DNA of 64,000 bases from Acetonema longum DSM 6540. GTDB lineage: Bacteria > Bacillota > Negativicutes > Sporomusales > Acetonemataceae. The position numbers and the translations under genes are program-made. Below the pieces are notes generated by a model. It had not been told where the DNA came from. It searched no databases and saw nothing but the letters and a program-made list of their open reading frames with translations. Below are positions 33,726-63,857 of the stretch, piece by piece. The DNA lies in contig NZ_AFGF01000081.1 in the NCBI RefSeq assembly GCF_000219125.1, positions 1-64,000 of the forward strand, in the 5' to 3' direction. Numbering within the stretch: position 1 is the first letter of the stretch; each line of letters begins with the position of its first letter.

Positions 33726-33767
33726 GCAGATCATTGTAAGAGATCAGCAGTCTGCCCGTTCTTATGA

Positions 33768-33799
33768 GGTTTGCATTTTGGCAAGCCTTTTTTCTTTTC
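33768..33799 (+). terminator. Terminator of corA
   Basis: The hairpin AGGTTTGC-ATTTTG-GCAAGCCT is followed by TTTTTCTTTT, 42 bases after the stop codon. Confidence 0.85.
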
Positions 33800-34033: not shown

Positions 34034-34948
34034 ATGAATGGAAAAAAGAATCTGCTCCTTGTGGTTACCCTTGCTTTTACCCTGATTTTTCTGCCTGGCT
34101 CTTTCACGGCAACCGGTGAAGCTGCCCAAAAGAAAATCGGGATCACCAAGTTTGACGGCACTTCGGTCGCATCTTCCTGGGATTATGAATACGACGTTGG
34201 TGCGGGGGCAGCCGATATGCTGACCAACGAACTGGTGAAAAACAAAAACTATATGGTCTTCGAACGGCAGCAATTAGCCGAAGTTCTTTCAGAGCAGCGC
34301 CTTGGCGCCAGCGGTGTGGTGGATGACGCTACCGCTGCCCGAATCGGCAAGGTCGTTGGACTGGACTATATCGTATACGGTAAAATCGTATCCGCCGGCG
34401 CTGAGAAGACAGGCGGCGGAGCCGCTATTGGTCCATGGGCCGTGGCTAATGAACATCTGACAGTCAGAGTGGTGGTAGCGGTAAGAATGATCGATGCCAC
34501 TACCGGCGCCGTGGTCATGTCCCATACCGCCACCGGTGAGGTTAAAAAGAGCGGCGGCGGCCTGGCCGGCGCAGTCGGAGGCAGAGGGTTCGCCACCGGT
34601 TCCAAAACGAAAGTAACTGTTGAGGTGTACGACCAGGCGGCCATTTTGGCAATTAAAGAAATCGCCGGCAAAATCAACGCGTTAAATCCTCTGGAAGGAG
34701 CCATCGTAGAAGTTGACCGCAAAACCATCTACTTAGACCTGGGGGCCGAACAGGGTGTGGAAGCCGGCAACCGCTTCCAAATCTACCGGGAAGGCAAACC
34801 CATCATCAATGCCAGGGGCCAGATTATCGGCATGACCCGGATCGATATCGCCACCGTCAAAGTCGTCAGTGTGGATAGCCTAATGTCGGTCTGCAAGTTG
34901 GAAGGCAGCGGCAAAGTCATGCTGGGAGACAAAGCCCGCTTGCTGTGA
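34034..34948 (+). CDS. Exported CsgG-like protein with FlgT-C-like end (cluster gene 1)
   Basis: A 304-residue protein with a signal peptide (hydrophobic run at 6-24, cleavage near GEAAQ) and no lipobox Cys. Residues 30-215 form a CsgG/TolB-N-like domain: KIGITKFDG, ADMLTNELVKNKNYMVFERQ, GLDYIVYGKI. Residues 225-304 look like the FlgT C-terminal domain (LGAEQGVEAGNRFQIY). CsgG forms the curli secretion pore in E. coli, but without the lipid anchor the analogy is loose. ATG 34034 follows AAAGGAGAT. It is the first of four related exported genes; the next starts 48 bases on. Confidence 0.8.
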   Translation: MNGKKNLLLVVTLAFTLIFLPGSFTATGEAAQKKIGITKFDGTSVASSWDYEYDVGAGAADMLTNELVKNKNYMVFERQQLAEVLSEQRLGASGVVDDATAARIGKVVGLDYIVYGKIVSAGAEKTGGGAAIGPWAVANEHLTVRVVVAVRMIDATTGAVVMSHTATGEVKKSGGGLAGAVGGRGFATGSKTKVTVEVYDQAAILAIKEIAGKINALNPLEGAIVEVDRKTIYLDLGAEQGVEAGNRFQIYREGKPIINARGQIIGMTRIDIATVKVVSVDSLMSVCKLEGSGKVMLGDKARLL

Positions 34949-34996
34949 TCTGCCGATACTCAAAACCGGTGAGTTTCACGAAAGAAGGGAGACCTC

Positions 34997-36115
34997 ATGA
35001 AACGATCCCTGATTCTTCTGATGGCGTTTATCTCCACTCTGCTGCTCAGCGGTGCGCCGGCGCTGGCCCATCCGAACGATGCGACGCCGGCCAGGGAAAT
35101 CGTAGTCAAGGGCTACGGCCCATCGAAGGATGACGCTCTGCGGGACGCCATGCGCAATGCGGTGGAAAAGGCTGTGGGATCCTTTGTGGAGGCTCAAACC
35201 CTGGTGGAAAACGCCAGTATCGTCACTGACGAGATTTACACCAAAGCCCAAGGATTCGTTCAGGATTACCGAATCCTGCGGGAAGGAAAACAAGGCGACC
35301 AGGTAGTCCTCACAGTCCGGATCAAGGTCAATACCCAGCCCAATGCAGCCCTTATGACCTCCTTGCAAAGGCTCAAGCTGATTGAAGCCGGACTGCAAGA
35401 CCCCCGCATCGGCGTCATCATCGTCAACAGCGATCAAACACCCAATCAGGCCGGCCAGATTTCCGTCATCCGCAAACTGCGGGAGCTGGGCTTCAAGCGG
35501 GTAATTGATCCCCAACAGGCAAAAAACCTCTACTCCGATGCCTTTATCAGTTCCATGGAAGAGGACGATTCTACCGCCCAAACCATTGCCGCTTCCTATC
35601 AGCTGGATTATGTAATCCTGGGCAGCGCCCTGGACAGTTCGGCCGGTGAAGTCATAGCAGGCGCCGGTATGTACTCAGCCCGGGCCAGCATTGAGGCGAA
35701 GCTTTTAAAGACGGACACCGGCGAAATCATTGCAGCCGGCAGATTCGAGTCCGGCGGTGCGGATATCAGCCAGGAAGTGGCGGGGCAAAAAGCCCTGACC
35801 AAAGCTGGTGAAACACTGGCTGAGGATATCGCCAAGCAGTTTCTGGACTACGCCAGTGATACCGAAAAAACCTTCAAGATCGTCGCCCAGCAGGTGACCG
35901 CCTTCAGCCAGGTGAATGCCCTGCAGAAAGAACTCAAGGATGTCCCCGGCGTAAAAGCGGTATATCTGCGCAGCTATGCCAACGGAGCGGCTGAATTTGA
36001 CGTGAACTTTATCGGTACGTCCCAGAGACTGGCTGACCGCCTGGAACAATGCAGCAGCGTTACCTTGATTATTCTGGAAATCGCCAATAGCCTCATTCAG
36101 GTTGAAATGTTTTGA
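34997..36115 (+). CDS. Exported FlgT-like protein, N and M domains (cluster gene 2)
   Basis: A 372-residue protein with a signal peptide cleaved near ALAH. Residues 30-115 match the LPP20/FlgT N-terminal fold: EIVVKGYGPSKDDALRDAMRNAVEKAVGSFV, then a beta region ending TVRIKV. Residues 125-280 resemble the FlgT middle (CsgG/TolB-N-like) domain, with YQLDYVILGSALDSS. The last 85 residues (QVTAFSQVNALQKEL onward) form another small alpha/beta unit. FlgT makes the H-ring of Vibrio flagella, but no flagellar genes are near. The start follows GAAGGGAG. It lies 48 bases after gene 1. Confidence 0.75.
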   Translation: MKRSLILLMAFISTLLLSGAPALAHPNDATPAREIVVKGYGPSKDDALRDAMRNAVEKAVGSFVEAQTLVENASIVTDEIYTKAQGFVQDYRILREGKQGDQVVLTVRIKVNTQPNAALMTSLQRLKLIEAGLQDPRIGVIIVNSDQTPNQAGQISVIRKLRELGFKRVIDPQQAKNLYSDAFISSMEEDDSTAQTIAASYQLDYVILGSALDSSAGEVIAGAGMYSARASIEAKLLKTDTGEIIAAGRFESGGADISQEVAGQKALTKAGETLAEDIAKQFLDYASDTEKTFKIVAQQVTAFSQVNALQKELKDVPGVKAVYLRSYANGAAEFDVNFIGTSQRLADRLEQCSSVTLIILEIANSLIQVEMF

Positions 36116-36126
36116 TCCTACAGCTT

Positions 36127-36163
36127 AGAATGCATCGTTCCCAGCTTGGGGATGATGCATTCT
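36127..36163 (+). terminator. Hairpin between cluster genes 2 and 3
   Basis: The stem AGAATGCATC / GATGCATTCT has inner CCC-GGG pairing and lies 12 bases after the gene-2 stop. The following sequence is T-rich but interrupted, so it may be a leaky terminator or an mRNA-stabilising hairpin. Confidence 0.45.
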
Positions 36164-36306
36164 TCCCTTCACTTTTTATTTTTTCCGCTGGCAGAAAATG
36201 CGGTCTTTTGTCATCCGCCGTCCCAAATCCGGTCTTTTGGCAGGAAAATAGTAGGCGACAGCGAAATAGTATTTACCAGCAGACAGTAATTTACGGAGGA
36301 ACGACC

Positions 36307-37176
36307 ATGGATCGACGCCGCGCCCGCGCTGCTCTATTTATCTTATTCTTTATCGCAATTTTATTCATATCTATATCTGTCCCGGTTGCCCAGGCCGCCG
36401 ACCAAAAGCCCATTGGCATACTGGAGTTTGAAGCGGCGCCTCAGGTCCAAAACACCGGCCTGACGAAACGAATCACCGGCCTCCTGACCGAATCCCTGAT
36501 TACCAACCGGTCCTATCAGGTGATCGGTCCTGAACGGACAGCCGCCATACTGGCCGAGCAAAACATCTCTGTCAGCGGCTTTTTTGAAGGCAGCATGACG
36601 CAGGATGTAAAGCAGATACATGGATTGGACTATCTGGTCACCGGTAAAATCATCCGGGCAGAGAGTCAGGATGTGGAACTGGACGGATTTCGGCAAAAGC
36701 GTGTCAAAGTGGTCTTGGCCATGCGGCTGATCAATGCAAGAAGCGGCGAAATCATCTTTGCCCAGACCGCGGTGGGTGAAACCAGGAAAACCTTTCTGGC
36801 CGACACCGACAGTTGGAAATTGGCTGATCCTCAGTCCGGCTATCAGGAAGCCCTGCAACAGGCACTCGCCCAACTGACGGACAAAATCCAGGCCTTGAAT
36901 CCTCTCTCCGGCTTGGTCATTGAGGTACATCCTGAGGACAACAGTGTTGTGATTGACCTGGGGTCCGAACAGGGCGCCAGTGTGGGGCAGCAATACTTGA
37001 TTTATCAGGAAGGCACCGTGGTGGTTCACCCTGTCAACCGGCAGGGACTGGGCAAAAAGACAAAAAGTCTGGCCGTCATTAAAATCTTTCAGGTACAAAA
37101 TCAACATTCGACCGGACAAGTTGTCTCAGGAAAGTGGGAAGATATTAAACCGCTGCAGCCGGTCAGCAAATTATAG
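36307..37176 (+). CDS. Exported CsgG-like protein with FlgT-C-like end (cluster gene 3)
   Basis: A 289-residue paralogue of cluster gene 1. It has a signal peptide (hydrophobic 9-27, cleavage near AQAAD). The CsgG-like domain has PIGILEFEAAP, GLLTESLITNRSYQVIGPER and GLDYLVTGKI. The C-terminal FlgT-C-like domain has IQALNPLSGLVIEV, matching INALNPLEGAIVEV of gene 1, and LGSEQGASVGQQYLIY. ATG 36307 follows ACGGAGG; the longer frame from 36112 is not supported. A 191-base spacer precedes it and may hold its own promoter. Confidence 0.78.
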   Translation: MDRRRARAALFILFFIAILFISISVPVAQAADQKPIGILEFEAAPQVQNTGLTKRITGLLTESLITNRSYQVIGPERTAAILAEQNISVSGFFEGSMTQDVKQIHGLDYLVTGKIIRAESQDVELDGFRQKRVKVVLAMRLINARSGEIIFAQTAVGETRKTFLADTDSWKLADPQSGYQEALQQALAQLTDKIQALNPLSGLVIEVHPEDNSVVIDLGSEQGASVGQQYLIYQEGTVVVHPVNRQGLGKKTKSLAVIKIFQVQNQHSTGQVVSGKWEDIKPLQPVSKL

Positions 37177-37238
37177 CCTGCCGTCTCAGTCTTTCTATAG
37201 ATTTTCGTATCGTAAATAAATCAGGGAGGTAAGAAATC

Positions 37239-38165
37239 ATGTCCCGAAAAGCATGGATATGTCTGGTACTCAGTTTGTTGCTTCTGGTTCTTCCTCTGGT
37301 AACCTACGCCAATAACGCTCAGTTCCTGTACAACAACAATGATCCCTATGCCAGCCAGCCTGTGGCTGACGGCAACGGCCTTGTCAACTGGGAAACCGAT
37401 TCGGTGGAAGCAATAGGGTTCGGCGTTCCTCCGGCCAACGCTTTCAGTTCGGCTCAGGCCCGGAACATGGCTCGCCGTGCTGCCATCGCCGACGCTCAGA
37501 GAAATCTGCTGGAATCCGTCCAGGGAGTGCAGGTGGACTCGGAAACGACGGTGGAGAACCTGGCTGTCTCCAGCGACGTTATCAATACCAGGATGTCCGG
37601 CATGCTCAAGGGCTACAAAATTGTCAATGAACAGCAAATGCCGGATGGTTCCTATCAAGTTGTCATCTCCGTCAGAATGTATGGTCAGAACAGTCTGGCC
37701 AACGCCATTTCCGGTCAAAGACAGCCCCAGCGGCCTTTCCCTCCGGCAGTTCAACCCTATCCGCAGCAGCAACCCAATCAGCCGCATCAGGGATATCAAC
37801 CGACTCAGCCGGCCGTTCGTCAATACACAGGCCTGGTAATTGACGCCAGAAGACTGGGCCTGGAACGGACCATGACGCCCATGATTTATGACGAAACCGG
37901 CAAGGTCATCTACGGTAACATGTATGTAGACCAAAATTATGTGGTGCAAAACGGCCTGGTGGATTATGCCGCTTCTCCCGGCGCCATTGAACTGATCGGC
38001 ATGGGCCAGTCCCGGGCCGGCGCCGACTATATTGAGGTCAAGGCCATCAAGCTCCGGGACCGCAACCGCAACATCGTCATCAGCGCCGCTGACGGCGACA
38101 GGATTCTCAACGCCAACGGCCCCACCGGTTTTTTGCTGAAGTGCAACGTTGTTATCAAGCACTAA
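37239..38165 (+). CDS. Exported LPP20-like protein with proline/glutamine linker (cluster gene 4)
   Basis: A 308-residue protein with a signal peptide cleaved near TYANN. Residues 45-150 are an LPP20/FlgT-N-like domain (AIGFGVPPANAFSSAQARNMARRAAIADAQRNL, then YQVVISVRMYG). Residues 160-195 are a Pro/Gln-rich linker. Residues 200-308 (TGLVIDARRLGL to the end) form a separate beta-rich domain often found after LPP20 domains. No lipobox Cys is visible, unlike Helicobacter LPP20. It starts 62 bases after gene 3 behind GGGAGG, and the cluster terminator follows it. Confidence 0.78.
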   Translation: MSRKAWICLVLSLLLLVLPLVTYANNAQFLYNNNDPYASQPVADGNGLVNWETDSVEAIGFGVPPANAFSSAQARNMARRAAIADAQRNLLESVQGVQVDSETTVENLAVSSDVINTRMSGMLKGYKIVNEQQMPDGSYQVVISVRMYGQNSLANAISGQRQPQRPFPPAVQPYPQQQPNQPHQGYQPTQPAVRQYTGLVIDARRLGLERTMTPMIYDETGKVIYGNMYVDQNYVVQNGLVDYAASPGAIELIGMGQSRAGADYIEVKAIKLRDRNRNIVISAADGDRILNANGPTGFLLKCNVVIKH

Positions 38166-38178
38166 ATCTATTAGAGAA

Positions 38179-38216
38179 AGACCCAGTCAGAAATGTTCTG
38201 ACCGGGTCTTTTTTTA
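38179..38216 (+). terminator. Terminator of the CsgG/FlgT-like cluster
   Basis: The hairpin AGACCC-A-GTCAGAA / TTCTGAC-CGGGTCT is followed by a seven-base T-run, directly after cluster gene 4. Confidence 0.88.
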
Positions 38217-51460: not shown

Positions 51461-51710
51461 TTTAGCACCTCTTGCCCGCTATGGCCACTCATAATTCTAT
51501 GGTGGTAATTCGCCGGTAAATTCCTACTTCCTCCCAGATCATACTCTTTATGCAAAAATAAATAGGCCTTTTTTCCTATACCCTGACCAGGAGCAAAAAA
51601 ACATATACGGCTGTATCACCATACATAGTTTACATAACGCCGAGAATTCTCTTGCGTTTGCCGGATTATGGACCTTGTCTTGCAGAGCGATTTACTGTAT
51701 CATCTAAAAT

Positions 51711-51820
51711 GTGCCGAATTTCCACAGGAATACGGAGGAACCAATTTATTGGGGTGAATCCTGCGCCCGGCGCAGGTAGGGATCCCTGTCCCGAACCCGT
51801 CAGCTAACTCCGGAGGCATG
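51711..51820 (+). ncRNA. ydaO-type c-di-AMP riboswitch
   Basis: The conserved blocks of this riboswitch appear in order: ACGGAGGAACC, GGGGTGAATCC, a variable GC hairpin, TAGGGAT, CTGTCCCGAACCCGTCAGCTAAC, and the closing CTCCGGAGGCA, which pairs with TGCCG at 51712. It lies directly before the 3D-domain gene. In known cases c-di-AMP binding switches wall-enzyme and potassium-transport genes off. Confidence 0.93.
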
Positions 51821-51833
51821 GGGACTGTTGAAA

Positions 51834-63375: not shown

Positions 63376-63664
63376 TGCTTTTAACCCCCTTCCGATCTTC
63401 ATTATCAATGTAATTTTCGACAATAATCCCAAAAATTCCTATAATAATTTGTAAAAAAATTAATTATTATGGGAAAATAGAAAAAGGAGTTTTAGAATGT
63501 GAATCATCTCATGCCTAAGCGCATACTCGCGCATAAACGACTATCATTGCACCCCTTGCTGCCTATTATCTGTTAGCCGCCGTTAACGGCCATTGCCGCC
63601 ATGCTGTCTTTATGATAAGATAAATTTTGTCGACACAAAGTGAATGAATGTCTGGAGTAAACGT

Positions 63665-63857
63665 GACTCAAATATGTCCAACCTACATTAGACAATCGGG
63701 AGTCAAACACTGCACAGCTGTCGGGCCGTCACCGAACGGATGGCAAAAATGCAGCTAAGGCGCCCACCTGTGAGAGCGCAGGTTTGGACATATACGAGAA
63801 CGTATTTCGGACAATCAGGTTTACGATAAAGGGCTTGCCGCGAGGCAGGTCCTTTTC
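63665..63857 (+). ncRNA. Possible structured RNA ending in a terminator
   Basis: Long-range arms ATATGTCCA-ACCT (63672-63684) and AGGTTTGGACATAT (63780-63793) enclose smaller stems (CTGCA / TGCAG, GCGC / GCGC). An ATACG-AGAA-CGTAT hairpin follows, then an 11-bp stem (63829-63854) with TTTT. I match it to no known riboswitch. It could be a small RNA or a leader for a gene beyond the window. Confidence 0.3.

Follow-up and report, generated by a model that had tools for sequence, protein, structure and literature searches.

What might a bacterium do with exported proteins assembled from the modules of a flagellar ring when the genes lie apart from any flagellar gene? The question is raised by four plus-strand genes of Acetonema longum DSM 6540 located in a 64,000-nucleotide stretch of contig NZ_AFGF01000081.1, hereafter the window. 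The answer favored here, to which about an even chance is given, is that their products constitute a flagellum-independent, outer-membrane-associated oligomeric scaffold positioned beside the peptidoglycan. The open reading frames were confirmed at 34034-34948 (gene 1), 34997-36115 (gene 2), 36307-37176 (gene 3) and 37239-38165 (gene 4), with the start of gene 3 probably at 36307, just 3' of a GGAGG motif. As a first-pass annotation had noted, all four products carry signal peptides without a lipobox cysteine; read from the sequence, each peptide is N-terminal and ends in an AxA-like site for type I cleavage. The nearest genes encode an Na/H exchanger, two tRNA-Ser, CorA, an M15 dipeptidase, an HTH protein and a glycosyltransferase, and none of them is a flagellar or curli gene. 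The cluster is preceded by a terminator after corA (33766-33799, + strand; 9-pair stem and T run) and followed by an intrinsic terminator (38173-38214, + strand; -24.3 kcal/mol, z -6.7, T run). Since a further strong hairpin and possible terminator (36126-36170, + strand; -27.5 kcal/mol, z -5.6, with a T-rich stretch downstream) separates gene 2 from gene 3, the four genes may represent two transcription units rather than one operon. Elsewhere in the window, Rfam models identify a c-di-AMP riboswitch (51702-51832) and a 6S RNA (63646-63817).

Domain composition of the four proteins

FlgT, FlgO and FlgP in Vibrio and FlgP in Campylobacter form accessory rings or discs of the flagellum, and both FlgT and TsaP encircle channels or rods of the envelope as rings. 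Modules of these proteins recur throughout the cluster. Gene 1 encodes a CsgG-like domain (approximately 34130-34681) followed by a FlgT_C/SH3-like domain (approximately 34721-34909), both above the Pfam cut-off (CsgG, 2.8e-26; FlgT_C, 2.2e-7), and gene 3 repeats this arrangement, with CsgG above (7.4e-10) and FlgT_C below (1.7e-4) the cut-off; the CsgG scores (PF03783) are 92.6 bits for gene 1 and 38.9 bits for gene 3 against a curated cut-off of 20.8. When compared with known structures, the profile of the gene 1/gene 3 family matches TsaP (3jc8, 5.8e-12), with which it shares the FlgT_C-type domain while lacking LysM, followed by CsgG (1.3e-6) and FlgT (3w1e, 7.6e-6). Gene 3, an extra gene of the window, is a diverged paralog of gene 1 (28% identity) with a long branch in the protein tree of the two, and not a recent duplicate.

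The CsgG-type domain, present in genes 1 and 3 and, by fold, in gene 2, is also that of CsgG and PelC, and it is conceivable that gene 1 or gene 3 provides the channel of a curli-like secretion pore, with the additional exported proteins of some expanded clusters (see below) as possible substrates. However, the curlin repeat was found in none of 150 Negativicutes genomes, the window's own included, by a search that does find it in the E. coli control, and the positions at which the CsgG membrane hairpins would lie appear to be gap-rich among relatives. Further, the proteins lack the lipobox and have a FlgT_C extension that is not known from CsgG. A curli-like pore is thus very improbable, and the export device that the first-pass annotation had offered beside a ring finds no footing here.

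Gene 2 is composed of a FlgT_N/LPP20-like domain (approximately 35129-35329), a FlgT-M/CsgG-like domain (approximately 35348-35857) and a C-terminal alpha/beta domain (approximately 35858-36112). In Pfam, FlgT_N is matched below the cut-off (3.9e-4) and FlgT-M is invisible, the latter being recognized by fold instead. An AlphaFold2 model built from the relatives' alignment (mean pLDDT 80) retrieved FlgT (3w1e, E 3.5e-11) as its best Foldseek match in the PDB, followed by CsgG and PelC, and domain-wise structural comparison ranked PelC (Z 12.9), the TolB N-domain (Z 11.4) and FlgT (Z 11.3). The C-terminal domain is not recognized as FlgT_C and yields a weak match to heavy-metal-binding proteins (E 0.05). 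Gene 2 residues 43-348 also match most of the model for the Leptospira protein LipL46 (NF033164; 7.1e-16), at 57.9 bits and therefore far below the curated cut-off of 400 bits. The LipL46 model is also matched by 14 of 24 gene 2 relatives, and the gene 2 product differs from LipL46 in not being a lipoprotein.

Gene 4 joins an LPP20/FlgP-like domain (approximately 37395-37688) by a Pro/Gln linker (approximately 37689-37826) to a second domain (approximately 37827-38162), which resembles domain D2 of Tp0624 from Treponema pallidum. LPP20 (PF02169) is matched at 1.6e-7, with 32.1 bits against a cut-off of 25.9, and by 44 of 50 gene 4 relatives at 0.001, while no Pfam model matched the second domain. 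The family profile finds C. jejuni basal-disc FlgP (9hmf, 2.3e-24) over the first domain and Tp0624 D2 (5jir, 1.7e-14) over the second. In the AlphaFold2 model (relatives' alignment; mean pLDDT 83), the sole clear Foldseek matches in the PDB were Tp0624 (E 1.7e-10, 282 columns) and FlgP (2.8e-4), and a second aligner superimposed residues 45-308 onto Tp0624 67-317 (Z 16.9, 4.3 A over 221 residues), Lpp20 (Z 7.1) and FlgT (Z 6.5) being matched by the first domain only. The Foldseek and VIA lists hold no family for the second domain besides Tp0624, although others may exist. The published boundaries of Tp0624 are 64-177 for D1 and 198-317 for D2, fused to an OmpA-like D3 (PMC5104382), which gene 4 lacks. 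The passages of that paper that were consulted compare D1 with trigger factor, give D2 as having no structural analog, describe both domains as repurposed and uncharacterized, and mention no ring (PMC5104382); in a later study, PA1624 proved to contain a domain resembling one of those of Tp0624 (PMC7716261). The predicted structure indicates that gene 4 in its entirety corresponds to Tp0624 D1-D2, the two units agreeing in fold and in domain order, a relationship that is new here.

The domain shared with FlgP extends to an insert that follows the SHS2 helix and precedes the next strand; in FlgP and FlgT, this insert correlates with ring formation (PMC12222027). The profile alignment of gene 4 to 9hmf is ungapped at this place, the FlgP ring-forming hairpin insert falling at residues 94-126 (37518-37616, + strand), and conservation within the stretch is 0.44 as against 0.33 across the entire protein. 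When gene 4 is modeled as a monomer, the insert has low pLDDT, which would fit a segment that becomes ordered only in an oligomer. Gene 4 departs from FlgP in its additional D2 domain, in its lack of a lipobox and in not being confined to flagellated genomes. Relatives of the LPP20, FlgP and CsgG kinds are, as a rule, lipoproteins.

Compared with FlgT of the Vibrio H-ring (3w1e, 8z5n), in which the N, M and C modules lie in one chain, the cluster distributes them over four genes, with N in genes 2 and 4, M in genes 1, 2 and 3, and C in genes 1 and 3. Pfam and fold evidence thus bear out the module assignments of the first-pass annotation, including its claim that every FlgT module type is present but split over separate genes, and the model folds of genes 2 and 4 are related to the FlgT, CsgG and FlgP types.

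Several further proteins carry parts of gene 4. In six genomes (G210, G248, G282, G311, G359 and G383), only the Tp0624-D2-like part is matched, in proteins of approximately 260-380 aa, and this part therefore appears to be an independent module. A second LPP20-like protein of the same genome (G000, contig C53; L061:8644-9120, - strand) matches gene 4 residues 53-145 and lies between genes for a SpoIID protein and a cyclophilin; no Pfam family is assigned to it. Two exported proteins near gene 4 homologs (L053:13656-14921 and L044:8516-9421) have a FlgT_N-like region, which in the former runs into TPR repeats.

Conservation and co-inheritance in the Negativicutes

Among the 150 class genomes, at a threshold of E 0.001, gene 4 or its LPP20 part occurs in 51 (one of which, G061, is counted solely because its gene 2 has an LPP20-like part), gene 2 in 36, and a full-length, high-scoring gene 1 in 19. 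Every genome with gene 2 also carries gene 4 (36/36; p 5e-23, uncorrected for kinship), as do, together with gene 2, 18 of the 19 carriers of full-length gene 1, and gene 4 often occurs alone, without genes 1 and 2. The usual order, gene 1-gene 2-gene 4, defines a conserved core, and the cluster is conserved far beyond one strain. The window shares corA upstream and addAB downstream with several Sporomusa-type genomes; no other conserved neighbors were found, and this synteny leaves the function of the cluster unexplained. In Selenomonadaceae and Phascolarctobacterium, enlarged clusters include further exported proteins. Three loci from Selenomonadaceae and relatives (L052:5581-15989, L054:4260-18243 and L055:6200-16367) have about ten exported genes, several of them CsgG-like, gene 2-like or of unnamed families. 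A large exported protein (680-885 aa), possibly a partner or substrate, directly adjoins the cluster in three genomes (L041:3606-6263, L039:12264-14918 and L055:6200-8245), and the two of these tested had no Pfam match. Our literature search found no paper tying CsgG, FlgT and LPP20 together in Negativicutes, nor one linking LipL46 to CsgG or Tp0624 to LPP20/FlgP, and domains of these types go unnamed in the main text on the V. parvula outer-membrane proteome.

Association with the outer membrane and with flagella

Across 299 genomes sampled more widely from the phylum, gene 4 (E 1e-10) was found in 28 genomes of at least nine families, all 28 of which possess Omp85, as opposed to none of the 223 genomes without Omp85 (uncorrected for kinship). 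The outer-membrane link proposed earlier is thereby supported; the ring proposed with it is putative, from homology to ring formers. Secretin, which in type IV pili is encircled by a TsaP ring, is present in 144 of the 150 class genomes and is so nearly universal that its co-occurrence with the set is uninformative.

A flagellar role must be weighed at this point. Of the 150 class genomes, 88 have FliF or FlgH, and gene 4 is found in 43 of these 88 and in 8 of the remaining 62 (uncorrected for kinship). Flagellated genomes thus carry the set more often. As it also consists of FlgT- and FlgP-type domains and the window's own genome has both FliF and FlgH, its products might surround the P/L rings of the Negativicutes flagellum as an H-ring or basal disc, secondarily kept in some lineages after loss of the flagellum. 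However, 45 flagellated genomes lack gene 4, and the eight carriers without FliF and FlgH, at 92% completeness or more, retain it, three of them with the entire gene 1-gene 2-gene 4 set. Further, no flagellar genes were recognized beside the mapped clusters, and FliF and FlgH of the window's genome lie on other contigs. In being unlinked to flagellar genes and present without flagella, the cluster is unlike FlgT, and a flagellar accessory role is considered unlikely; persistence without flagella is compatible with the scaffold reading.

Relatives beyond the Firmicutes and a model of the complex

A collection scan built on a closer set of 13 gene 4 proteins found relatives in Desulfobacterales, Syntrophales, Mariprofundus, Saganbacteria, Armatimonadetes, Bacteroidetes, Sumerlaeota and others. 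At Desulfobacterales-type loci, gene 4 is followed by a TPR lipoprotein and then, in some, by a gene 2 relative or a FecR protein, and one bacterium has all parts, with gene 4, the lipoprotein, gene 2 and gene 1 in succession (L129). Bacteroidetes have gene 4-gene 2 pairs in which the D2 part is matched only partly. Because gene 4-gene 2 and even gene 4-gene 2-gene 1 clusters occur in Desulfobacterota and other phyla, the suggestion that the device is special to diderm Firmicutes does not hold. Peptidoglycan-type modules accompany gene 4 in several settings: SLH domains in 9 of 10 TPR lipoproteins near gene 4 at Desulfobacterota-type loci, an OmpA/caspase-domain protein adjoining gene 4 in Mariprofundus, and the OmpA-like D3 fused in Tp0624 (PMC5104382).

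Such modules could also be expected of separate LpoB-, TolB- and Tp0624-like adaptors that tether the outer membrane to peptidoglycan, or regulate either, rings not being required. The adjoining SLH/TPR lipoproteins, the OmpA-like domain of Tp0624, an LpoB match in gene 1 (4.2e-5) and the resemblance of gene 2 to the TolB N-domain are all in keeping with this scenario. However, a FlgP-type insert and a FlgT/TsaP domain characterize proteins that form rings, and Pfam shows no peptidoglycan-binding domain in the four proteins themselves, so that independent adaptors are judged improbable, to about the same degree as a flagellar accessory.

The oligomeric scaffold is preferred because the parts, their co-inheritance, their restriction to genomes with an outer membrane and the recurrent peptidoglycan-type modules all fit it. 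This model proposes that the exported products of genes 1-4 would cooperate in the periplasm beneath the outer membrane, flagella not being needed, and that the FlgP-type domain of gene 4 would polymerize into rings via its insert, as in FlgP. Together, the domains may build a disc, or one or several rings, on the inward-facing side of the outer membrane, possibly bracing this membrane, or a structure within it, against the peptidoglycan. Ring assembly is suggested by homology to known ring formers, and the interactions, location and bracing function are likewise proposed. The absent lipobox, the enrichment in flagellated genomes, the frequent solitary gene 4, the hairpin between genes 2 and 3 and the absence of a ring from the Tp0624 passages cited above count against the model.

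Flagellar motors and secretion channels are the main places in which rings of CsgG-, FlgT- and FlgP-type domains have been described. The persistence of a conserved set in bacteria that lack flagella, and its occurrence in step with the outer membrane, point to a general envelope machine. The comparison also gives Tp0624 a family, its D1 being FlgP/LPP20-like and its D2 recurring in many phyla with no matching Pfam model. More tentatively, and with somewhat less than an even chance, the set may be a widespread relative of the H-ring and basal disc that has no need of a flagellum, built of FlgP/FlgT/CsgG-type domains under the outer membrane of diverse diderms, to which the orphan Tp0624 of the agent of syphilis would also belong. 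Sets of the gene 1-gene 2-gene 4 type would then be a possible source from which flagellar accessory rings were perhaps recruited.
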